A stretch of 64,000 nucleotides of DNA from the NCBI RefSeq assembly GCF_020515625.1, contig NZ_JAIWPJ010000001.1, positions 930,001 to 994,000 on the forward strand. Reading direction: 5' to 3'. The translations under genes were made by a program, and so were the position numbers. Numbering within the stretch: the stretch's first letter is position 1; every line of letters begins with the position of its first letter. Origin of the DNA: Natrinema amylolyticum (GTDB taxonomy: Archaea > Halobacteriota > Halobacteria > Halobacteriales > Natrialbaceae). The notes under the pieces are model-generated. The model was not told the DNA's origin. It was given only the letters and a program-made list of their open reading frames with translations, and did not search any database. Below, one piece after another: positions 1-11,436 of this stretch.

Positions 1-1
1 T

Positions 2-325
2 GACCCCGAGGTCACGATACCGGCGAATTTCGAGGATCGGATCGATTCGCTGGCCTCGAGTTCCAGACAGATCATCAACACCGCTGCGGACGTGATTCTC
101 GCCGACGCCGGAGTCAAGGGAGCGCAAACGGCGCTCACCGAACGGGACGAACTGACGGCAGACCTCAGTGCGCTCGATCGGGATCTCTACGCCCATGACG
201 ATCCCGCCGAGGCCTACGTAGTCGGTCTGCTGCTCAACAGTATCCGCCGAACGGGCGAGTACGGCGCGAACATCGCTGGCATTGCTATCCAGCAATGCGC
301 CCGTGAGTGTGAGTGTCTCGATTGA
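2..325 (+). CDS. PhoU-domain protein, C-terminal part (5' end outside window)
   Basis: The reading frame is open from the first bases and ends at 325, so only about 107 C-terminal residues are present. The sequence is helical and ends with SIRRTGEYGANIAGIAIQ, which matches the second PhoU helical bundle of haloarchaeal phosphate-uptake regulators. These often carry an N-terminal AbrB/SpoVT domain, which cannot be seen here. Members of this family modulate phosphate (Pst) transport and Pho-type regulation. The family call rests on that helix signature only. No pst genes lie downstream in this window. Confidence 0.7.
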   Translation, partial: DPEVTIPANFEDRIDSLASSSRQIINTAADVILADAGVKGAQTALTERDELTADLSALDRDLYAHDDPAEAYVVGLLLNSIRRTGEYGANIAGIAIQQCARECECLD

Positions 326-558
326 GTGATCAGTTCGCGACCGTGTCCCGTCTGGAAGCCGCCGGCGCGCCGATTGGAACCACTCACAGGGATCAGCCCG
401 GACACTTCCGCCCAAAGCGAGCTAGCGATTCCCCCACAGGCGAATGTTCTGTACTATCTATGTAGCATATGGGAATACTCATAGCAGCCGTTTTCTGTGT
501 AATATGCTCCCTTCCAATCAGAGTCGTCCAACTCCCGGAAGCGTCAGAAGACACCACT

Positions 559-1368
559 ATGTCCCAACAGAATGGAATCCCTCAAGAGAAGAACAGAGAG
601 ACCGTTGGTCACAGGCGACGAGAGGTGCTTGCGACATTCGTAACCGGAATGGGTGTGTTAGCAGGCTGTGTTTCTAGAGCACAAGAGCAAGGCCAAGAGA
701 ATATCGTCCGCCACTATTCTATCCATACACATCATATGAGAGAAGATATCCGCATACCCATTCCCAGGTCTGTCTACCAGGCGGCTCGCGAGGAAAAAGC
801 CGCAATCCCAAACGCTGTTACCGCTGCTCAGAATAATGAATTTCTTGACGGTATTGTCCGCCGTATCATAGACTCTTCTTCCTCCCTTCCTGAGGCACTT
901 CATGCCGTCCAATCCTTCGTTGATACTATCGACTACGCCACAGATATAGAGTCGACAGAGACTATCGAATACGTTCGCCATCCATCTGAGACGCTTGTGG
1001 ACGGTGAAGGTGACTGTGAGGACAAAGCCGTTCTCCTCGCTGGACTCCTTTCTTGTCCACCTTTTAATTACAAAACAGGGCTTGTCTTCCCACCAAAACA
1101 TTGTGCAACACTTGCGCCTTGGAAGCACCTCCCCACTCAATCATTTTCAGCAGACCCGCTGATTGTGACAGTGAATGGGACAGAGTTTGTATATGTTGAG
1201 TCGGTCGCGGCGGTTCCCTTAGGAAACTGGGCAGAAGACTATGGTCAGGGTCCTATTCTTGCCTCATATGTGGATTTTTGGGAAATACATGATATGAATT
1301 CGCTGATAGCATCGGCTGAGCATGCACTAGGTGATGGTTTGTTCCCGACACTTCGTGCATATACTTAG
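559..1368 (+). CDS. Transglutaminase-like lipoprotein of a low-GC island
   Basis: 269 residues from the ATG at 559; an upstream in-frame ATG at 469 would place hydrophobic residues ahead of the export signal and is less likely. The N-terminus has a twin-arginine-like stretch (GHRRREVLATF) followed by a lipobox (LAGC), so export and lipid anchoring are expected. A transglutaminase/cysteine-protease-like core is suggested by DGEGDCEDKAVLLAGLL (Cys nucleophile) and a later KHCATLA histidine; the acidic third residue is less certain. The gene is clearly less GC-rich than its neighbours, with many A/T third positions, which suggests recent acquisition. The substrate is unknown; the enzyme could act on surface proteins or be an inactive fold. 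Confidence 0.6.
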   Translation: MSQQNGIPQEKNRETVGHRRREVLATFVTGMGVLAGCVSRAQEQGQENIVRHYSIHTHHMREDIRIPIPRSVYQAAREEKAAIPNAVTAAQNNEFLDGIVRRIIDSSSSLPEALHAVQSFVDTIDYATDIESTETIEYVRHPSETLVDGEGDCEDKAVLLAGLLSCPPFNYKTGLVFPPKHCATLAPWKHLPTQSFSADPLIVTVNGTEFVYVESVAAVPLGNWAEDYGQGPILASYVDFWEIHDMNSLIASAEHALGDGLFPTLRAYT

Positions 1369-1832
1369 AATCTAAGTACACTATAAGAAGGTTGCTTTAT
1401 GCGTAAACCCGAATCTGATCAATACAGGTGAGTTATCAGTTGCTCTCCTTCTAACCCAAAACCATGCCGATCTATACTAATTATATATATTAAACTCTTT
1501 GATATTAAAAGAATCATAGCATAGTGTCTAATTCTACAACGCGGACATTCAAGAGATATAGATTACTCAGATTGGCAGTGATGATGGCTGTCAGACTGTA
1601 TCAGTTTGTAATCCTATCAGGCGGAGACACTGTCCCAGAATGGACTGTCGGCGGTCACGCCCATCTCGGTGTCCCTCAATCTTTGCGATTGTGATGGGAT
1701 TCACCGTCCCTACACTGGTCCTGAATAACGAGTCGAAAATCCACCAATAGCACGGCGAGCCAGCACCAGAGCACATTCAACGGACCGGAGGAGTCGTGAC
1801 TTTGAGAGGGCATCCATCTTGCCTCGCGCTAC
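1369..1832. other. AT-rich intergenic stretch, no convincing gene
   Basis: The first 200 bases are strongly AT-rich (TATATATATTAAAC near 1485). The part from about 1590 to 1790 regains GC and has short open stretches on the minus strand (for example LWCWLAVLLVDFRLVIQDQ in one frame) that break after 30-60 codons. They may be relics of a decayed gene, possibly a transposase, but I cannot identify one. Confidence 0.4.
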
Positions 1833-2774
1833 TCAATCGTCATGTTTCTCAGCAAAGGTTTCAACAAAGCCGTTTCGATGACTTCGAAGCGTTGTCGTGG
1901 ACGTCCCCGCTACATCAGCGATTGCTTGCTGAGTGAGCCGATAGCCGGTTTCTTGCGTCGCGCTATAGAGACACGCTGCGGCGAATCCATGCGGATGTCT
2001 GCCGATCGTAAATCCTGCTTCCTCTGCCAGATCAGCCAACTCGAGCGCTCGGTATCGCACCTCGCATGGCACGTCGAGCTCAGTTGCGAGACGGGGAAGG
2101 ATGTCCTGCGGTCGCGAGGTGGGGATCGGCAAATCCAGTTCGGTATTTATGGCGGTGTATGCACACTCCAATTGCGCTCGAGAGCATTGCGCCCCAGCGG
2201 CGATCTCGTCGCGTGTTCGTCCGAGTCTGTTGCACCGACAGACGACGTACACGCTCGCAGCTGCGATTCCCTCGAGTGATCGCCCCGAACAGAGGTTCCG
2301 ATCCTGGGCGCGCCGAAACAGCGTACACGCCTGATCTCGAAGCGACGTCGATAGCTCGAGAACGCTCGCGAGTCGGCGTACTTCGCCGAGGCCGTCTGCC
2401 AGGTTCCGTTCGCGTTTCGAACGCCATTGACTGCGTCGGTGTTGACGACGGAGCCGACTGAGTTGACGACGCTTTCGCCCGGGAATCGGATTCCCTCGTG
2501 CATCGGTCCGCCAGCCGATCTCGGTCGAAAGGCCGCGATCGTGGCGACCCGCAGTGAGCGGTGCACCCGTTCGTCGTTGGCTCGTCCCATCTGTAGATGT
2601 GAACCAGTCGGGACCGTAATCAAGCAGGTCTTCCTCGACGATCAGCCCGCACTCCCGACACTGCGTTTCGTGCGTTATCGTAATGAGGGAGCCACTGCAC
2701 TCCGGACACAATGTCGTCCGTTCTGTACTCGTCTCTCGATCAAATCGACCGCTATCCGAATCTGCTATAGTCAT
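1833..2774 (-). CDS. Divergent transcription initiation factor IIB (TFB)
   Basis: 313 residues. TFB bridges TBP at the TATA box and RNA polymerase. An N-terminal zinc ribbon is present (CPEC at 23-26, CREC at 39-42), then the B-reader/linker region (GLSTEIGWRTDARGNPIPGRKRRQL) and two cyclin-like repeats (about 120-200 and 215-305), the second ending with a recognisable HTH (TQQAIADVAGTSTTTLRSH). It is clearly more divergent than the second TFB at 26.0 kb: the reader carries extra Arg and the first repeat has unusual Cys residues (VVCRCNRL). Haloarchaea carry several TFBs that direct alternative regulons, and this copy lies in an accessory region, so a specialised or element-borne role is plausible. 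Confidence 0.92.
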   Translation of the reverse strand: MTIADSDSGRFDRETSTERTTLCPECSGSLITITHETQCRECGLIVEEDLLDYGPDWFTSTDGTSQRRTGAPLTAGRHDRGLSTEIGWRTDARGNPIPGRKRRQLSRLRRQHRRSQWRSKRERNLADGLGEVRRLASVLELSTSLRDQACTLFRRAQDRNLCSGRSLEGIAAASVYVVCRCNRLGRTRDEIAAGAQCSRAQLECAYTAINTELDLPIPTSRPQDILPRLATELDVPCEVRYRALELADLAEEAGFTIGRHPHGFAAACLYSATQETGYRLTQQAIADVAGTSTTTLRSHRNGFVETFAEKHDD

Positions 2775-2913
2775 AAGTCACTCTGACGGGACGCCTCTCT
2801 GCTCGCCCCGTCACCCCTTTGGGGGCGATAAACTGGCTCGAGATCGTCGAGTGGGGAGGGAATATATCGAACTGGAACTTTCGGAGCGGGTGGCGACTAG
2901 CGAACGGACGGTA

Positions 2914-3087
2914 TTATTCGGTTGAGTCAAAAACATACAGAAATAGGGCCCCAACGACACCGAAGAGCCCTATACCTAGCATACCGGATTGCGGAACCAT
3001 CTGGCTGTAAATAAACACCCCAATCAATGCAATCACTATCAGGAGAAATTCGACCAACAGCAAATGCTTGCGTAGGTCAGAATCCAT
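2914..3087 (-). CDS. Small two-helix membrane protein
   Basis: 57 residues read from the ATG at 3087 to TAA at 2914. It begins MDSDLRKHLLLVEF and has two hydrophobic segments (about residues 9-27 and 36-53) separated by a short polar loop (YSQMVPQSG), ending FDSTE. A haloarchaeal small membrane protein of unknown function is the best description. Its composition (acidic ends, clean hydrophobic spans) supports coding. It sits alone between the divergent TFB gene and the HalOD1/metalloprotease pair. Confidence 0.6.
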   Translation of the reverse strand: MDSDLRKHLLLVEFLLIVIALIGVFIYSQMVPQSGMLGIGLFGVVGALFLYVFDSTE

Positions 3088-3286
3088 CAGTTATCTACGT
3101 AGAAATAATACTGTTATAAATTTAGTGTTCGGTCTATAACGTGAGGATGTTAAGAGCAAAGTCAATTCCGTCGGAACTGACGGACTTTTTCATTTCTCTC
3201 GAGTCATCGTATTGCACCACGCAAGCAAAGCAGTAGGAGAAAACGGACTCTATTTTCTACCTCTACCGCTAATCGTAGTGGTCGTT

Positions 3287-3499
3287 CTACGATCGAGCGA
3301 TAACACGCACCTCGGTTCGCGTGACGAGGACGCAAAACGCTCCGACTGCGAATCTGACCTCGAGGTCATCGCTCGCCGAGTCGACGAGTTGCTCGAGCGC
3401 TTCGATATCGATCACTCGATGCAGTTGGTACGCGTCACGATCGAGTCCCTGCGCTTCGAGCGCGTCGACGATCTCGAGGAGGAGGTTTCGATCACTCAT
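3287..3499 (-). CDS. HalOD1-type small protein
   Basis: 70 residues. The pattern LHRVIDIEALEQLVDSA then VRFAVGAFCVLVTRTEVRVI matches the halobacterial output domain HalOD1, a short alpha/beta domain found alone or attached to signalling proteins in haloarchaea. The start overlaps the end of the upstream metalloprotease gene by 8 bases, so the two are almost certainly co-transcribed and possibly translationally coupled. The HalOD1 function is not established; the pairing with an ArdC/ImmA protein suggests a partner or regulator. Confidence 0.65.
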   Translation of the reverse strand: MSDRNLLLEIVDALEAQGLDRDAYQLHRVIDIEALEQLVDSASDDLEVRFAVGAFCVLVTRTEVRVIARS

Positions 3500-4430
3500 C
3501 CTCGCTCACCTCGTCGACGACGCCGATAATCCTCTCAGCCGTCGAACTGATCCGATCGAGACGTTCGAAGATGGCCTCTGGCTCGTCGCCTCGCCAGGCA
3601 GCGAGATAGAACGCAGAGCCGCTCGTATCGAGTCCGAAGTACTGTCCAACGATGTAGCCGACTGCTTCGGCCTCCAGTTCTCGTTCCGAACGGTCGGTCT
3701 CGTCCCCAGTGTCACCGTGCAACAGTGCGTGGGCGTACTCGTGGATGAGCGTCACAGCGAGATCGGCGCTGTTCTCTCGGTCCCGAACCTTCACCAGTGG
3801 TCGTTCCGCAGGGGCACGATACTGACAGACGCCCCTGGCATTGCCGTGAGGCCATTCCGCGAGAGGAATGACCACGACGTCCACCTCGAGCGATGGCGCT
3901 CCCTCGAGGAGGTGTGACGCCACCTCGTCGCCCTCTCCGATCGCTTCGGTCTCGAGTTCAGGTAGTGACTCGCCTTCCGTCTGCGAGATATCGAACACTG
4001 GTGCTGGCCGAAAGCCAACGAGTCCGTTCTTCCATTCGCTTGGATCGGTCTCGTCGTACTCACACTCGCTTCGATCGTGGTACGACAACGAGTTACCGCA
4101 CTCGGGGCATTTGCTCGCGATGATCGGAGCCCAGATCCAGATCGCTTTCTCGCCTTCTGTCACGTGCCGATCGAACTCGTTTTGCCACGTTCGATAGCCG
4201 GCGATACGAGTCGCGTGCGGACACTGGAGTTTGATCAACAGCGTGTTCCGAGGGGAATAGTCGTGGAACTCGCTCTGGACGTTGAGCCACTCTCTGAACT
4301 GCTCGCTCGAGACGGCGTCGTCGACCTCCCCGACGAGTTCCTCGAGCCACGTTTCGATCGTACTGTGCATCTCGTCGTTCCGGGTGCTCGAATCGTCGAA
4401 CGTTTCCCGGGGGCAACTACTCGTGCTCAT
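3492..4430 (-). CDS. ArdC-like / ImmA-IrrE-type zinc metallopeptidase
   Basis: 312 residues. The N-terminal part (about 20-150) resembles the ArdC ssDNA-binding domain of plasmid antirestriction proteins: FHDYSPRNTLLIKLQ, then the WQNEFDRHVTEGEKAIWIWAP turn. It includes a zinc-knuckle insertion (CPEC at 108-111, then H118 and C123). The C-terminal part carries the metalloprotease signature HEYAH (230-234) with a downstream ELEAEA (251-256) providing the third ligand. Proteins of this build protect incoming plasmids or cleave repressors in mobile elements. It heads an operon with the HalOD1 gene, and lies beside RPA-like and HerA-like genes, which fits an element-maintenance role. Confidence 0.85.
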   Translation of the reverse strand: MSTSSCPRETFDDSSTRNDEMHSTIETWLEELVGEVDDAVSSEQFREWLNVQSEFHDYSPRNTLLIKLQCPHATRIAGYRTWQNEFDRHVTEGEKAIWIWAPIIASKCPECGNSLSYHDRSECEYDETDPSEWKNGLVGFRPAPVFDISQTEGESLPELETEAIGEGDEVASHLLEGAPSLEVDVVVIPLAEWPHGNARGVCQYRAPAERPLVKVRDRENSADLAVTLIHEYAHALLHGDTGDETDRSERELEAEAVGYIVGQYFGLDTSGSAFYLAAWRGDEPEAIFERLDRISSTAERIIGVVDEVSEDE

Positions 4431-4664
4431 GGGTAAACGGCCGTCTCGAATCGACCTCGAGAAGACCGCTGCCCGTCAGCGGGTCTCAAAAAATCGGCAG
4501 ATAGTCAGCGCCGATCCGACGAGGGACTAATCTATGCATCGCAAACAGATCGAGCGAAAGCCCGGCAGCGAACGGCCCTCGGCCGTGAGCAGCCCGGAAC
4601 GTGGAGGCGGGTGGGGCGGCGGGTAGTGGGTGATCGGGACCTAGCAAAAAAGGAGACTACAGCG

Positions 4665-5513
4665 CTACTCCCACCACTGACCGCGCTCTGGAAACACGAT
4701 CTCCGACCATCGAGTCAGCGCGATCGAACACCGTCCATTGTACCAGTTCTTCGCAGCCGCCCTGAATCGCACCCGCTCACCCTTACAGACCATCGTCTGC
4801 CGGCTCTTCGACCAGATAGTGAACTTCGTTCGTCCCGTTTCGTCTTCGATCAACCCCACCTGTTGGATACTCGTACTCGAGGGTTCCCACAGCTCGATCA
4901 CGCGACCGTCCACACTGACCTCTCCCCGCCTGATCTCCTCGAGCCTCCCGATCGGCACGATCGTCCCTGCTTCGTGTTCCATTTCTTCTTTCGTCGCCAT
5001 CACCGCCTCGAACAGCTCTCCGCCCTCGAGAACTCGACTCGCGATCCGCTTCGCGATGACCGCTCGGGTGTAGCCACCGGTGACGTCCTTGGCCAACCGC
5101 TGTGCCTGTCGATTGATCTCTCCCACCACCGTTCGCTCGAGTTTCTCACGGGGATCGTCTCGCACGTTCGTCCGCCGGTCCTGACATGCCTCCTTGACCG
5201 CCGCTCTCGTTCGTTCCGCACGCCCCTCCTGTCGACCGACTGCCGCCTGTTCACTGATTCGCTCGAGTTCTTCCTCTCTGGCTCGAATGCGTTCTTCCTG
5301 GGCCAGAGTTGCGCCGTAGATCCGATCGTCGCTCGTGTCGAAGATTCCGTCTGGGTGGTTCGCATCTACCTTCGCCTGAATCTCCATCTCCACCGTAGCC
5401 CGGAACTCCGGCGTCTCATCGACGATATCCGGATGCTCTTCTCGAGCGCCATCTTGTTCGTATGCTTGTTCATCGACCGAAACGACCTTGCTAATCGACT
5501 TCCTACTAGACAT
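4665..5513 (-). CDS. RPA-like single-stranded DNA-binding protein
   Basis: 282 residues from the ATG at 5513; an in-frame TTG lies five codons upstream. Residues 1-60 are polar, then a long charged helical region with coiled-coil character (QEERIRAREEELERISEQ) spans about 75-150. The C-terminal roughly 90 residues form an OB-fold-like unit (GEVSVDGRVIELWEP ... VGLIEDETGRTKFTIW ... VRFRAAAKNWYNGRCSIAL), as in haloarchaeal RPA/Rfa proteins and in the DNA-binding proteins found on haloarchaeal plasmids. It is not a standard chromosomal RPA: there is a single OB fold and no zinc finger. The pairing with the HerA/VirB4-like gene suggests ssDNA handling during transfer or replication of an element. 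Confidence 0.75.
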   Translation of the reverse strand: MSSRKSISKVVSVDEQAYEQDGAREEHPDIVDETPEFRATVEMEIQAKVDANHPDGIFDTSDDRIYGATLAQEERIRAREEELERISEQAAVGRQEGRAERTRAAVKEACQDRRTNVRDDPREKLERTVVGEINRQAQRLAKDVTGGYTRAVIAKRIASRVLEGGELFEAVMATKEEMEHEAGTIVPIGRLEEIRRGEVSVDGRVIELWEPSSTSIQQVGLIEDETGRTKFTIWSKSRQTMVCKGERVRFRAAAKNWYNGRCSIALTRWSEIVFPERGQWWE

Positions 5514-5605
5514 TGGATTACAGTCCAAAGGCGCTCACTCGGCGTCTTTTCCGACACCACGACTCTCCAGCCCTGGCTCTCGTCGCTCTCCAACGTTCCA
5601 TCACA

Positions 5606-5657
5606 CGCGTCTCGCTCGCGCCTTCGCAAGCGCCCGTCAGGGCGCGAGCGAGACGCG
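5606..5657. repeat. Perfect 17-bp inverted repeat upstream of the RPA-like gene
   Basis: Arm CGCGTCTCGCTCGCGCC at 5606-5622 pairs perfectly with its reverse complement at 5641-5657, leaving an 18-base loop. It lies about 95 bases upstream of the start of the RPA-like gene. The following 300 bases are rich in AGCGA-type motifs typical of haloarchaeal dispersed intergenic repeats. It could be a REP-like element, a replication or transfer structure, or a terminator of an upstream transcript. Confidence 0.7.
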
Positions 5658-5985
5658 CCGATGCCCGAGTAACCAGCACCGCGCGTCGCTTCCACCAGAG
5701 CGAGCGTCCAGTTTTAAGCCGTTTTCGCGTCTGAGCGGGAGCGAAGACCGAAAGCGCGCTTAATACTGGTATCCGAAGAGCGGGAGTGAGCGGAGGGCAG
5801 AAGCGGCGAGTTGTGCGCGCAATTTATGCCGAGGACAGTAACAGACTGTGACCGCTGAACATCCGGCATGGGTGGGGTCCAACGGGCGAGTGCAGTCGAC
5901 GAACCCCGACGACGAAAGCACCGCAGCGAAGCGAGGAGCGCAGCGAGTCGCGGGAGTCGACTGTGCGAGGGGGTTGGAACGTTCA
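5658..5985. other. Gene-poor stretch with AGCGA-rich sequence
   Basis: Several short overlapping reading frames exist on both strands but none has haloarchaeal composition (they are rich in Ser, Arg and Cys). The sequence is dominated by AGCGA/GAGCG motifs, as in decayed intergenic repeats. I see no supportable gene. Confidence 0.4.
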
Positions 5986-6138
5986 TCAGACGGTCGGTCG
6001 CTTGTCCCTGCAATTCTGCTCGAGTATCTGTCCAAGTTCTTCCTGGGGGACGACTGCTTCGAATACGCCTGAATCAAGTCGCTCGCTAAAACCGGTTTGG
6101 AATGACTCCAACTCGTCGCTCCAGTCAGAGATGGTCAT
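5986..6138 (-). CDS. Possible small acidic protein
   Basis: A 50-residue frame from the ATG at 6138. It starts MTISDWSDELESF and continues with FSERLDSGVFEAVVPQEELGQILE, an acidic and amphipathic composition typical of real haloarchaeal proteins and unlike surrounding frames. An upstream in-frame ATG at 6195 would add AT-rich, less convincing residues. There is no recognisable domain. It could be the remnant of a longer protein. Confidence 0.35.
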   Translation of the reverse strand: MTISDWSDELESFQTGFSERLDSGVFEAVVPQEELGQILEQNCRDKRPTV

Positions 6139-6395
6139 ACTTTGCCTAATGATCACTGCAATAATGACCTGTGTGTTTGGTATAATCAGATACATGATCC
6201 ACTGAGACGGTTAGGCAGGTGGAGGATGTCAATGGATGAGATAGACGGGACATTCCAAACCGCCTGTAACGGAAGTCATCTGCGGAGTCTGGAACCGTCC
6301 TTAGACGCGAAGCGTTCTGATGTGCGAACGAAAGCAGAACTCTCCTTAACTACTTGGCCTTCAGCCTGCGTTGCTCCTTGAGGATGGGGACTTAG

Positions 6396-6533
6396 TCTGC
6401 AAAAGTTAACACGGACAACGAGGCCGCAAAGGCTCTCGGCAAGTTCGACCACGAACTGATGCAGATCCTTGCCGCAAAAGAGGATGGTGGTGAACTTGAT
6501 GAGGATGGAACACCGATTGTCACCGAAAGCTAA
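6396..6533 (+). pseudogene. Fragment of an unidentified protein (C-terminal end)
   Basis: An open stretch of about 45 codons follows an in-frame stop at 6393 and ends at TAA 6531-6533. It reads NTDNEAAKALGKFDHELMQ then LAAKEDGGELDEDGTP, composition typical of a haloarchaeal protein tail, but without a start codon near its beginning. I interpret it as the surviving end of a gene lost by deletion. The family is not recognisable. Confidence 0.4.
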
Positions 6534-6620
6534 TTGGCCTCTATTTTCCTGATTTGGGGACCTCGAGTACCCGATCGATCCGTTCGCGGATCTGGTCAAC
6601 TCCCGTTCGTATGGGTTCCC

Positions 6621-6645
6621 GATATATTTATTATATTTTATACCA
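6621..6645 (+). promoter_or_regulatory. AT-rich promoter region before the HerA-like gene
   Basis: GATATATTTATTATATTTTA contains several overlapping TATA-like boxes in otherwise GC-rich sequence, about 90 bases before the ATG at 6731. It is a reasonable archaeal promoter for the large ATPase gene, giving a leader of some 60 bases. The exact box cannot be chosen. Confidence 0.45.
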
Positions 6646-6730
6646 TAACACACGTATTGAAAGTCGTAGTCTCAGAAGCCTCATACTACGGTCCGCGTGA
6701 GCGCTGTCTGTGCCAGACTTCCCGTAACTA

Positions 6731-9700
6731 ATGCCGACAGAGAAAGACGCAACGCCGATACCTGAGGAACCGACGATTACATCTCTCGAGAATTCAAGTT
6801 CGACCACTCTTAAAGATGTCACCGGCAGTGACTCGAGTTCAGAGATATGTGACGAGACAATCAGGAGTCACACTGATTCATCAACCGATAAGCCACGAGC
6901 GTATATCGAAATTCGACCGTCGACGAACCCACCCAACGCGACGGCCGTTTCACAGTCGACGTCGCTGCTGTACGAGAGCCTGCGAGAACTCTCTGACTCG
7001 AGTGTCTGGTCGTCGCTTCGAAATGGAACTCAACAACCGATCGTCGAGTGGCTGCTCGTCGCTGACGGGCAGTCGGATACCAGCATTCGGTATCTCGTTG
7101 GGACAACACACGACGTGTTTCTCGACGAACTCGAGGCGATTCTCCGGACGTGGTTTCCGGACACGTACGAATTGACACGGGTCGAGTGGCATCCGCGTCA
7201 AATCGAAGCCTCGTGTTCGCTCTCTGCAGAGAACGAGCGTTCGACGTCGTCGACTGCTGGTGATAGCGAGGTACCTGAGATCCGAACGCGACCGTACGTC
7301 GCTGGTGTCGAATATCGCGCTACTACCGACATCCGCCAGGACTGGCAAACCTCGCTCGCAACGTTCGACGAGATCACCGACCGTTCCTCACAGCCACGAT
7401 CGACCGAAGACGAGTCGAAATCCCGACGCGTCCCACTGGCGACGCTCGTCGAAACGCTCTGTGATTCGACGGTCCCCATCGTGTATCAGGTCGTCTGTCG
7501 GCCGATGGGAGATCAGCGGGCGACCGCAGAACAGTACCGGTACGATCTCGAGCGCAGCCTCGTCACACCCGCAGATCGCGTCTTCGGATTCATCTTCCCG
7601 AACGCGGACGAGAAACTCGAGACGGCGGCTCTCTCACCCGCATACCGAGACCGCCTCGCCGATCTCGAGACGCGAGACCTCCGACGGACGTTTTGTCTCT
7701 CGGCTCGAGCGGTGGCGTTCGCAGACGAGTCTCGGAATCCAGAGCAAGCCGACGCGATCGTTCGCAGTCTGGCGAGCGTATTCGGACACCTGAGCGGACC
7801 GTACCATACCATTCGGGGACACGTCAGTACGGATAGCGACCTCCATACGGGCACATGTCCGCCTGCGAGACGACTTTTCGAAGAGATCCGTGATCGCTCC
7901 TGTCCCGAACCGACGTACGAAACAGTCGCGACCCGTCTTCCGTGGAAGACGCCCGAGAGCGCTGGGATCGTCGTCTCGCCGGATGAACTTCCCGGATTCT
8001 GTCTGATCGACGGCGTCGGTCTCACGCCAACCGGACAGCGAGCACTCGGCGCTCGACAATCCGAACGAACCGGACTTCCCCTGCCATCGCCGGACGATCT
8101 CGAGCGATATACGGGGTCCGGTCAAGCGCTCTGTATGCCCCTCACTGACGACCGCCAACCATACGAGAACCCGTTCGTCCTCCCCCCATCACTCCAAGAC
8201 AGACATCTCTTCGTCGTCGGAGATACGGGCTCGGGGAAATCCGTCCTCACGACCGGCGCGATGCTTTCGAACGTCGAGGCCACAGACGGCCCGGAGATCC
8301 TCTTCGATTACAAGGGAGGGGGAACGGCCGAGGAGTACCTTCGAGCACACTACGTGGCACACGGCGGCCTCGAGAACGTCCGTTACTTTGACCTCACCAA
8401 ACTGTTGCCCGCGCTGTCGATCTTCGATATCAGGTCGCTGCTCGATGCAGGCCTCTCACGCGAGGAAGCGCGATCGAGAATTGCGGGCCACTACGAGGAG
8501 ATCCTCGCGGGATTGATGGGCGAAGACCAGTACTACGGGGCGACAGAGTCGACGAAGGCGATTCGAAATCACCTTCGAGCATTGTTCGACCCGATTCACG
8601 GCTCTGATACCGTCTCGCACAAAGACCTCTATCGAGCGCTTCAACGCACGCTCGGCGATCGAACGCCACCGCCGACCTCGGATGACCGACTCACCGAATA
8701 CTTCGCCGGATTGCTCGAGCGCGACCGAGACGTCTTCAACATGGTCCTCGGCGGTGCCGTGGCTCGAGTCGAGATCATCGCGACCGACGATCGACTCGCA
8801 CCGCTGTTCGATCACGTCCCCTCTGTTCACGACGCGGAAGACGAGACTGGTGAAGACAGAGCGAGTTCTCGAGAAGAGACAGCTGATGACCAGACGAGCC
8901 CCCACTTCGATTTCATCGACGTCATCAACGATGATGCGGTCATCATCTTCGACTTTGGCGGGATGGAAGAGCGGATTAAACGCGCCCTCACGCTCGTCCT
9001 CCTCTCGAACCTGTGGACGGCACTGAAAGCTCGGTCCGAAAGCCCGGAGCTGTCCGAGAACCCACTTCTAGTCAATCTATATCTCGAGGAAGCGAAAGAC
9101 GTCGTCGCAACACAGTTGGTCGATACACTCCTCTCGCAGGGACGGTCGTTCGGGCTCTCCCTCATGCTCGGCGTTCAGTTTCCGAGTCAGCTCGATTCCC
9201 CGGATCCGTCGAATCACACGTACGAGGAAGCGCTCAACGAGATCGGGACGTTCGTCATCGGCAACGTCAGTATCGAAGACGATCTCGCAAAGGCGCTCGC
9301 GACCGACGACGTTCCGCCGAAAAAAGTCGCCAGGCGGCTTGCAGCTATTCGCCACGGCGAGTGGCTCGTCCGCCCCGCGGCCGCGTTCGGTTCGCCCATC
9401 CCACGGCCGTTTCTCGGACGATCACTGCCCGCCCCTGACGGGCACCCAGTGAGCGACGCTCCCCTCGACGACGAGAGTGCACGGACCTTCGAGGCCGCGT
9501 TCGAACTCACCGAGCTGGAGACCTGGAATGAAGCGGGACTCGATTACGAGACCGCTGCATCAGGGAGGGGCCACACGGGCAACGAAAACGAGTCCGCGGA
9601 GGACGAAACCGAAGCGGAGTCACTCTACGTTGGCTCGCTACTCCCGCACACGAAGCGACTCCCTGAGTGCGTGAGCTACGACGAGTCAATACACGCCCTC

Positions 9701-10597
9701 TGTTGTGACTCGTGTGCAAACCGCTACGACCCGACCATCGACGGAATGAAGCGGGCGATCAACTGCTGTCACACGCTTACGGACATCGATTCGGACGATA
9801 TCCCCGTCTGCGACATCAATCTCAAACTCACACCCGAAGAGCGTGATGCCACCGAATGGAGCGATCGCCAACTGCTCTTCTTACAGACGGTGTACAACGC
9901 CCAACAACTCCGCTACGATCCCCTCGAGTACGACCTCCTCTACGACTCCATGCTCAGACTGCAGGAGTACGTCGGCATCGAACCCGACGAAATCTCCCCG
10001 CTGCTCGAGGCCGACCTCCTCCGACACGATACGGATCACCCGCATCGCCTCTACACCGTCTCTTCCGATGGCAGATCCGTAATCGGGGAAAGCTATCGCA
10101 AAGGCGTCGACTATGGTCACGGGATCGGCGATCTCGACGAATCCAGTGAACATGTCTTCGGAATCGAGGTCACTCGTCGCTATCTCGAGGAAGCGTATGC
10201 AGCGAACCCGGACTCGAGCGTTTCTGAAGTCATCCCATATTACGAACTCGACGATCAACACCGGCTCGACCTCGCAGGCGTGAGCTCCGATGGCGAAATA
10301 ATCGTCACGGCTGAGGTCGAACGCATTAACCACGACACACGACGTGCAGTGCCCGAAGACTTCGATAAGATGGCCGCCTGCGAACCCGAGGCCGCGATCT
10401 GGGTCGTCATGAAACAAGCCGACGGACACAAAATACTCTCCGCACTCAACGACCCGCTCGAGGGCACACCCCGCGTCGAGAAAACGTATGCAGAAACCAC
10501 GCCGCCCCAACAGTTCCGGATCGACACACCCGGAATGACGGCAGTCTACCCCGCAGAGTGGCTCCGAGATCACTCACCGGAACCGGATACAGTGTAA
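6731..10597 (+). CDS. HerA/VirB4-type DNA-translocating ATPase with zinc cluster and nuclease-like C-terminus
   Basis: 1288 residues. The N-terminal 450 residues are variable. An ATPase core follows, with Walker A GDTGSGKS (about 498-504) and a Walker-B-like strand LLVNLYLEEAKDV (about 778-790), then LSQGRSFGLSLMLGVQFPSQL, the arginine/sensor region typical of HerA-FtsK and conjugative VirB4/TraG-like ATPases. A zinc-binding cluster (CCDSCANRY ... CCH, about 990-1015) follows. The last 130 residues (HRLDLAGVSSDGEIIVTAEVERI) look like a restriction-endonuclease-like fold with spaced acidic residues. Such proteins are the signature of haloarchaeal integrative/conjugative elements. The neighbours (RPA-like, ArdC-like) agree. 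The nuclease reading of the C-terminus is inference from the strand pattern. Confidence 0.85.
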   Translation: MPTEKDATPIPEEPTITSLENSSSTTLKDVTGSDSSSEICDETIRSHTDSSTDKPRAYIEIRPSTNPPNATAVSQSTSLLYESLRELSDSSVWSSLRNGTQQPIVEWLLVADGQSDTSIRYLVGTTHDVFLDELEAILRTWFPDTYELTRVEWHPRQIEASCSLSAENERSTSSTAGDSEVPEIRTRPYVAGVEYRATTDIRQDWQTSLATFDEITDRSSQPRSTEDESKSRRVPLATLVETLCDSTVPIVYQVVCRPMGDQRATAEQYRYDLERSLVTPADRVFGFIFPNADEKLETAALSPAYRDRLADLETRDLRRTFCLSARAVAFADESRNPEQADAIVRSLASVFGHLSGPYHTIRGHVSTDSDLHTGTCPPARRLFEEIRDRSCPEPTYETVATRLPWKTPESAGIVVSPDELPGFCLIDGVGLTPTGQRALGARQSERTGLPLPSPDDLERYTGSGQALCMPLTDDRQPYENPFVLPPSLQDRHLFVVGDTGSGKSVLTTGAMLSNVEATDGPEILFDYKGGGTAEEYLRAHYVAHGGLENVRYFDLTKLLPALSIFDIRSLLDAGLSREEARSRIAGHYEEILAGLMGEDQYYGATESTKAIRNHLRALFDPIHGSDTVSHKDLYRALQRTLGDRTPPPTSDDRLTEYFAGLLERDRDVFNMVLGGAVARVEIIATDDRLAPLFDHVPSVHDAEDETGEDRASSREETADDQTSPHFDFIDVINDDAVIIFDFGGMEERIKRALTLVLLSNLWTALKARSESPELSENPLLVNLYLEEAKDVVATQLVDTLLSQGRSFGLSLMLGVQFPSQLDSPDPSNHTYEEALNEIGTFVIGNVSIEDDLAKALATDDVPPKKVARRLAAIRHGEWLVRPAAAFGSPIPRPFLGRSLPAPDGHPVSDAPLDDESARTFEAAFELTELETWNEAGLDYETAASGRGHTGNENESAEDETEAESLYVGSLLPHTKRLPECVSYDESIHALCCDSCANRYDPTIDGMKRAINCCHTLTDIDSDDIPVCDINLKLTPEERDATEWSDRQLLFLQTVYNAQQLRYDPLEYDLLYDSMLRLQEYVGIEPDEISPLLEADLLRHDTDHPHRLYTVSSDGRSVIGESYRKGVDYGHGIGDLDESSEHVFGIEVTRRYLEEAYAANPDSSVSEVIPYYELDDQHRLDLAGVSSDGEIIVTAEVERINHDTRRAVPEDFDKMAACEPEAAIWVVMKQADGHKILSALNDPLEGTPRVEKTYAETTPPQQFRIDTPGMTAVYPAEWLRDHSPEPDTV

Positions 10598-11436
10598 GTC
10601 ACAGCGGGACGGAATTCCCGACGACGATTCGTGTCCAGTCTCACCTCGAGGCGTCGTGTACCCATCGCAGAATCGGTCGTCTCCCATTCATAATCGCCTC
10701 AATCCACCGCAAGGCTGCTGTGGCCGGTCTCTCGAGGGCGGAACTAGGTGGGCTGATTGATGGGATACTGCATGCCTTGACCTGTCGAACTGGGTCTCCT
10801 TGCTCGAGTCATCGTTGAAAGTCGACTCCTGGCTATAGATTCTCAGATTCGCCTCGAGCGTAGGAAATCGCAGCGGAAACCCTCTCTTTGCGCCCGCTGA
10901 TTCGAACTCCCACAGAGCATCTCCGAGATCAATCTCCGAAATCGGGTCCCGAAATCGAATCGAATTCGCCGACTGCTTGAGCATATCGAAGGCCGTAGAG
11001 AACCAAAACCAGCAGACGACGGCCGATTATGAGAGTCAAATCGGACTCTCTTCAGATTACTCCTGCTGACATGGCCGACTCGTCTCTGACGTCCCCTCGC
11101 CGTCTCGAGCTAGTCTCAGCGCCTCTGCTCGAGTCGATGGCCGATTTTTGAACCTCGCTTTCTCTCTTCCTAGAATCTCCCTCTTGCACCCCTCAGCAAC
11201 ACCTTGCGGGGGAGAGAGACGAATATGGGAGGCTAGACCGAGATGAGAGACAATACGGGAGGGCTGTGACTGGCTATCCGGAAGAAGATCCCCATTATGA
11301 TCGACTATACACGTGAATTGCAGGCTGTCGAAGGCAACCACTGTGTCAGATCGTGTTCGGCTCGTCAATAATGACTCCGCCCTCTCAGTCGCCGGTACCA
11401 TCCGCAGTGGCGCATTCGTATCGAGAACGAATCCGA
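10598..11436. other. 839-base gene-poor region after the HerA-like gene
   Basis: There is no complete gene. A minus-strand stretch around 10830-10980 reads IRFRDPISEIDLGDALWEFE and FPLRFPTLEANLRIYSQ, which looks like once-coding sequence but has no partner domain. Another minus-strand stretch near 11350-11430 contains FVLDTNAPLR, reminiscent of a PIN-domain start, but nothing conserved follows. This is likely the decayed edge of the accessory region; no tRNA or integrase is visible. Confidence 0.4.

Follow-up and report, generated by a model that had tools for sequence, protein, structure and literature searches.

A predicted coupling ATPase with a nuclease-like tail in an integrated, conjugative-type element of a haloarchaeon

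Genes at the locus and the transfer operon to its left

We analyzed a 64,000-nucleotide stretch of DNA (G000:C1:930001-994000, hereafter the window) from a haloarchaeal genome whose nearest relatives are Natrinema. The four open reading frames that the original prediction placed at 3287-10597 in the window were all confirmed at their coordinates, and their family names hold. The first (3287..3499, minus strand) encodes a stand-alone HalOD1 protein (Pfam/NCBIfam match, 5.5e-6), and its start overlaps the end of ardC by 8 bases (ATGAGTGA). The ArdC/ImmA protein itself (3492..4430, minus strand) combines an ssDNA-binding N domain (ArdcN, 1.6e-5) with an HExxH metalloprotease domain (Peptidase_M78, 3e-4; both Pfam/NCBIfam) and carries an inserted, zinc-ribbon-like Cys/His stretch. 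An RPA-like OB-fold ssDNA-binding protein (4665..5528, minus strand, with an ATG start at 5513) matched replication factor A at 4e-19. The fourth gene (6731..10597, plus strand) encodes a putative HerA/VirD4-like coupling ATPase of 1288 residues (DUF87/HerA, 1.6e-5; TrwB, 1.4e-5), the C-terminal part of which comprises a Zn cluster, a winged-helix-like segment and a nuclease-like tail. A TFB (TFIIB) paralogue belonging to the same element lies at 1833..2774 (minus strand). No tRNA or Rfam RNA was detected in the window.

Positions 1..11271 form the right part of an element that continues leftward beyond the window, where we read a further 40 kb. The stretch from about -24 to -15.5 kb is occupied by a type IV secretion (conjugation) operon, all on the minus strand. 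It encodes a primase with an NrS-1-type domain (-23414..-22239), a P-loop VirB4 protein (-22233..-20113), a 363-aa protein that takes the VirB3-like position and has hydrophobic segments near its N-terminus, a VirB6/TrbL_3 protein (-19022..-17889; PF19590, E=4e-208), a secreted 563-aa surface protein that bears a hydrophobic segment near its C-terminus, and a 139-aa pilin-like protein with hydrophobic segments; the VirB3-like and pilin-like labels are given from architecture and position only. The far left of the element holds a PIN-domain gene and a probable antitoxin. Rightward of the operon come a phosphonate (C-P lyase) cluster and then the TFB, HalOD1, ArdC, RPA and ATPase genes. We rejected a reading of the left region as ordinary chromosome: the 563-aa protein was found in one of 20 relatives, which were chiefly ones without this ATPase copy. 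The same protein was also considered as a fusexin and rejected, with no PDB match by phmmer or profile.

Within the element, the stretch from the pilin-like gene to TFB holds the phosphonate cluster (about -14500 to 325; PhnI, PhnJ, a phosphonate-binding protein, an ABC transporter and a PhoU-like regulator). The cluster is missing in N. ejinorense and in a second genome (G010), and the N. ejinorense TFB is truncated at the junction. Beside the cluster, a transglutaminase-like, lipoprotein-like gene (469-1368) has a low third-position GC (0.43), and a SWIM zinc finger protein (L024:4846-5340, minus strand) is encoded between the pilin-like gene and the cluster, in a stretch common to N. ejinorense.

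The 8-base overlap between HalOD1 and ArdC genes is exact, as had been noted, and most relatives within that ArdC clade keep it at this length. Among 40 ArdC loci surveyed in this genome and in related ones, HalOD1 directly follows ardC in all 20 of the closest loci (one fragmentary, one split) and in four of the 20 more distant ones, the other 16 being without HalOD1; where the pair occurs, the overlap is usually the same 8 bases. Among plasmid matches to HalOD1, 13 of the best 15 abut an annotated ArdC/ImmA/DUF955 gene. The overlapping genes are a conserved, clade-specific pair of one Natrialbaceae clade. The original prediction had counted ArdC-HalOD1 within the element core; ArdC does recur with that core, but the pair is a separate module. 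It was rejected as an obligatory part of the ATPase module, given that it stands alone on many plasmids and that distant ArdC genes are without HalOD1. We found no description of the pair in the open-access literature (subscription papers and supplements lay outside the search); stand-alone HalOD1 proteins are an already-known family (PMC5847659).

The ATPase, its C-terminal tail and the relaxase question

The 1288-residue protein had been called a HerA pump. It is an ATPase pump, but the name fits less well: by profile and predicted fold it is best read as a VirD4/TrwB-like coupling ATPase. In alignments, Walker A (GDTGSGKS, residues 497-504; 8219..8242, plus strand) is intact and the Walker B region is acidic. 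An AlphaFold model (mean pLDDT 81), made with an alignment without plasmid sequences, has a RecA-like core, the best PDB matches of which were HerA, TrwB (TMt about 0.6), VirB4 and DndH. VirD4 proteins usually carry an N-terminal membrane anchor; none is evident in this ATPase, which has a large extra N-terminal region. No match was found in a phage collection. The Cys cluster predicted after the ATPase core is present (CCDSC...CCH, residues 991-1014, with C991, C992, C995, C1012 and C1013; 9701..9772, plus strand); in the alignment it is kept in most of the nearer subfamily and missing from the plasmid subfamily. A winged-helix-like segment, assigned from predicted secondary structure, lies between the ATPase and the tail (9863..10060, plus strand).

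The predicted structure of the tail (10118..10594, plus strand) agrees with the nuclease-like character ascribed to it before. Modelled alone with AlphaFold (pLDDT 86, pTM 0.81), it runs helix, three strands, helix, strand, helix, the alpha-beta-beta-beta-alpha-beta core of PD-(D/E)XK. Its top PDB matches by Foldseek were SfsA, YaeQ, EndoMS, the BspD6I nicking subunit, Can2, PaqCI and BpuSI, almost all of which we take to belong to the PD-(D/E)XK fold class; individually these matches are weak (best E 0.02, none below 0.001). Sequence profiles compared with the tail found no known nuclease. Six residues (H1141, D1180, E1195, E1197, D1210 and K1213) are invariant in an alignment of 35 tails with identity down to about 25%, giving the pattern D...ExE...DxDK. 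E1197 takes the position of the canonical ExK lysine, and K1213 lies in the next helix. The active site of BamHI has Glu, not Lys, at the third position (D...ExE). The pattern is kept in most, though not all, of the distant relatives, which are shorter ATPases and stand-alone winged-helix proteins of 270-320 aa. On the predicted fold, the PD-(D/E)XK-type matches, the invariant residues and the retention of the pattern in most distant relatives, the tail is probably a nuclease.

Seven of the stand-alone relatives, several with a weak PadR-like winged-helix match, are possibly a separate nuclease family. Five tail-bearing proteins of 800-880 aa, TrwB/TraG-like where scanned, are mostly without a TrbL_3 gene on their own contig and possibly belong to a different system.

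Pfam scans that covered nearly all genes of the element detected no MOB relaxase, in line with what had been seen in the window, and two relaxase families (PF03432 and PF08751) are absent genome-wide. Neither nurA nor mre11 nor rad50 occurs among the scanned element genes. A DUF7845 Rep in the element was considered and rejected, being absent there; a DUF7845 (Rep-Arvir) replication protein is encoded 0.5 Mb away (G000:C1:1454781-1455791), probably on a separate element.

The same element and coupling ATPase could carry a tail that is a non-catalytic DNA- or protein-binding domain, with the ssDNA coming from an unrecognized relaxase or from a nuclease of the host, either HerA-NurA-like or the DUF7845 Rep encoded at a distance. 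The weak structural matches and the ExE in place of ExK would fit such a tail, and for the other ssDNA source there is the DUF7845 Rep elsewhere in the genome, of a family reported in archaeal ICEs (PMC13107129). We nonetheless judge this reading rather unlikely, since D, E, E, D and K are invariant in tails only 25-30% identical, and much the same pattern, if not in every one, is found in the distant shorter ATPases and stand-alone winged-helix proteins.

Insertion site, selection and recurrence of the gene set

The element lies between aglB and uppP-glmS and extends from about -26.3 kb, beyond the window, to 11271, about 38 kb in all. In six other Natrinema species (G005, G009, G014, G020, G022 and G025), aglB, uppP and glmS are adjacent, giving empty sites; the one in G020 may be a scar left by deletion and not a pristine site. 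Remnants persist at the site in other genomes: VirB4 and primase in G015 and G027, and an ArdC fragment in G021. The element is 91-94% identical to the copy in N. ejinorense, against 78.6% for aglB and 81.6-84% for the right flank, and the right step, a drop from 91-94% to 84%, falls at 11271. As the element is far closer to its N. ejinorense counterpart than the flanks are, these identities suggest exchange after the species split. In the N. ejinorense copy, an insertion of about 16.7 kb separates ArdC from RPA (L101/L002; G028:C1 1638060-1654765), and there is a further DUF234/ATPase_2 gene between RPA and the ATPase. A search of the flanks for attachment sites had been suggested; the longest direct repeat found between the junctions is 9 bases, none is convincing as an attachment repeat, and no excision site was found. 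The element region holds no PF00589 integrase match, in line with the original prediction, which saw no integrase gene.

The transfer proteins, ATPase, RPA and ArdC gave dN/dS values of 0.09-0.17 (0.13-0.17 for the last three), similar to glmS (0.14); TFB gave 0.23, and HalOD1 0.40 in one comparison (70 codons) and 0.17 in another. Because these values are mostly 0.1-0.2, the element is not decayed. The suggestion of a minimal or decayed transfer/defence module is thus ruled out, both by this strong purifying selection and by the transfer operon just beyond the window edge, and conservation together with purifying selection excludes chance as the source of the four-gene observation. What looks like a low-GC "four-gene core" can turn out to be one end of an entire transfer element. 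The locus is best read as part of a chromosomally integrated, T4SS-bearing (conjugative-type) element that encodes VirB4, a VirB6/TrbL channel protein and a VirD4-type ATPase.

In several Natrinema genomes, the aglB-uppP site again holds the transfer genes and the ATPase. Such a shared site, the purifying selection and the lack of an integrase in the element region could also point to a domesticated chromosomal DNA-exchange system like Ced/Ted that no longer moves as an element. We consider domestication improbable, given that the element shows presence/absence polymorphism, that G015 and G027 retain remnants at the site, that identity to N. ejinorense steps at each of the two borders, and that homologous operons occur on plasmids.

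The core with its antirestriction and ssDNA-binding proteins recurs beyond Natrinema. Co-occurrence elsewhere had been set as a test, and the ATPase, RPA-like, TFB and ArdC genes are found together in a genome of another genus of the same family (G034) and on plasmid pJ7-1. In G034, the order primase-VirB4-VirB3-like-VirB6-563aa-TFB-ArdC-RPA-ATPase is the same over about 24 kb. A Halarchaeum plasmid carries VirB4 through the 563-aa gene, then TFB, RPA and the ATPase, without ArdC; on pJ7-1 the ATPase is accompanied by primase, RPA, TFB and ArdC; and pHS3 has VirB3-like, VirB4, ATPase and primase genes in a row, with the ATPase homologue overlapping both the VirB4 and the primase genes. Across 145 Halobacteria genomes, the ATPase tail is present in 66 and a TrbL_3 protein in 70, with a genome co-occurrence (Fisher 2x2 p=3e-14) that is optimistic given that related genomes are not independent. 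TrbL_3 lies within 60 kb of 51 of the 72 full-length tails in these genomes, with distances grouped around 7.5 kb in the plasmid form; the other 21 ATPases are without TrbL within 60 kb, and some of their contigs end nearby. Repeated linkage to VirB4, VirB6 and primase, not to a dedicated partner, and a core fold at least as close to TrwB make an anti-phage or anti-plasmid HerA-nuclease defence module on a mobile element very improbable, although HerA-nuclease defence systems exist, there are matches to the MADS mad8 profile (E=2.4e-11) and to several defence HerA proteins, and HsdR_N and N-6 methylase genes lie near some relatives.

A proposed route to transfer ssDNA and comparison with known systems

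In bacterial transfer systems, a separate enzyme nicks the DNA. We favor, as the probable reading, that the locus is the coupling and establishment end of an integrated T4SS element in which pump and nuclease tail feed ssDNA to the channel. The 1288-aa ATPase would be the coupling pump of the element, and its winged-helix-like and PD-(D/E)XK-like tail, with D...ExE and the next-helix lysine, would cut or resect element DNA. Pump and nuclease in one protein would then pass ssDNA to the VirB4/VirB6/pilin channel, as proposed for HerA-NurA in Ced/Ted. The RPA-like protein would coat the transferred strand; in the recipient, ArdC would shield this strand from restriction and the primase would start the second strand. 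We infer transfer itself, the nuclease activity and this division of labor, with pump and tail making or processing the transferred ssDNA as a substitute for a relaxase. It is a tentative generalization, and one that may well not hold, that in haloarchaeal conjugative elements a nuclease joined to the coupling ATPase has taken the place of the relaxase, so that one protein recognizes, cuts and pumps, and that this arrangement is widespread in Halobacteria.

Archaeal conjugative systems are reported to have no recognizable relaxase; how they make the transfer strand is a stated open question, and HerA-NurA has been proposed as the ssDNA source in such systems (PMC9905601). If our reading is true, the fused nuclease tail would supply the ssDNA for transfer in a relaxase-free way. 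With a nuclease-like tail on the coupling ATPase itself, encoded beside VirB4, VirB6 and primase and under purifying selection, a single-gene, residue-level test is open in genetically tractable haloarchaea.

The ArdC protein resembles that of R388, which works in the recipient against type I restriction (PMC7213743), in its ssDNA-binding N domain, its metalloprotease domain and the transfer genes alongside; it differs in the inserted Cys/His stretch and the translationally overlapped HalOD1 gene. By analogy, this ArdC may have an anti-restriction role in the recipient. Like the TrwB/VirD4 coupling proteins (R388), the ATPase has a RecA-like core (TMt about 0.6) and is encoded with T4SS genes, but it differs from them in its N-terminal region, without an evident membrane anchor, and in having a Zn cluster, a winged-helix-like segment and a nuclease-like tail in its C-terminal part.

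Work on fusexins has already described haloarchaeal elements that carry VirB4, HerA and VirD4-type genes (Moi et al., 2022, PMC9259645). The Fsx1 integrated mobile elements share with ours the haloarchaeal host, the VirB4, HerA and TraG/VirD4-type ATPase genes and the insertion pattern between related genomes. Unlike them, the element region here has no XerC/D-type integrase, and the 563-aa surface protein has no sequence match to any PDB chain, among which the solved Fsx1 (7P4L) should be included; the passages of that account covered here make no mention of a nuclease-like tail. Nor did we find a description of such a tail on a coupling ATPase in the open-access literature, searched within the same bounds as for the ArdC-HalOD1 pair.

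The Ced/Ted systems (Beltran et al., 2023, PMC9905601) likewise combine parts resembling VirB4 and VirB6 with a small pilin-like protein, have HerA close by and lack a relaxase. The system described here differs in being element-borne and integrated, in joining pump and nuclease-like domain in a single polypeptide, and in the type of that domain, which is PD-(D/E)XK-like here and RNase H-fold in NurA. T4SS-bearing haloarchaeal elements are thus already known, and what is new is the fused nuclease-like tail in a relaxase-less system.
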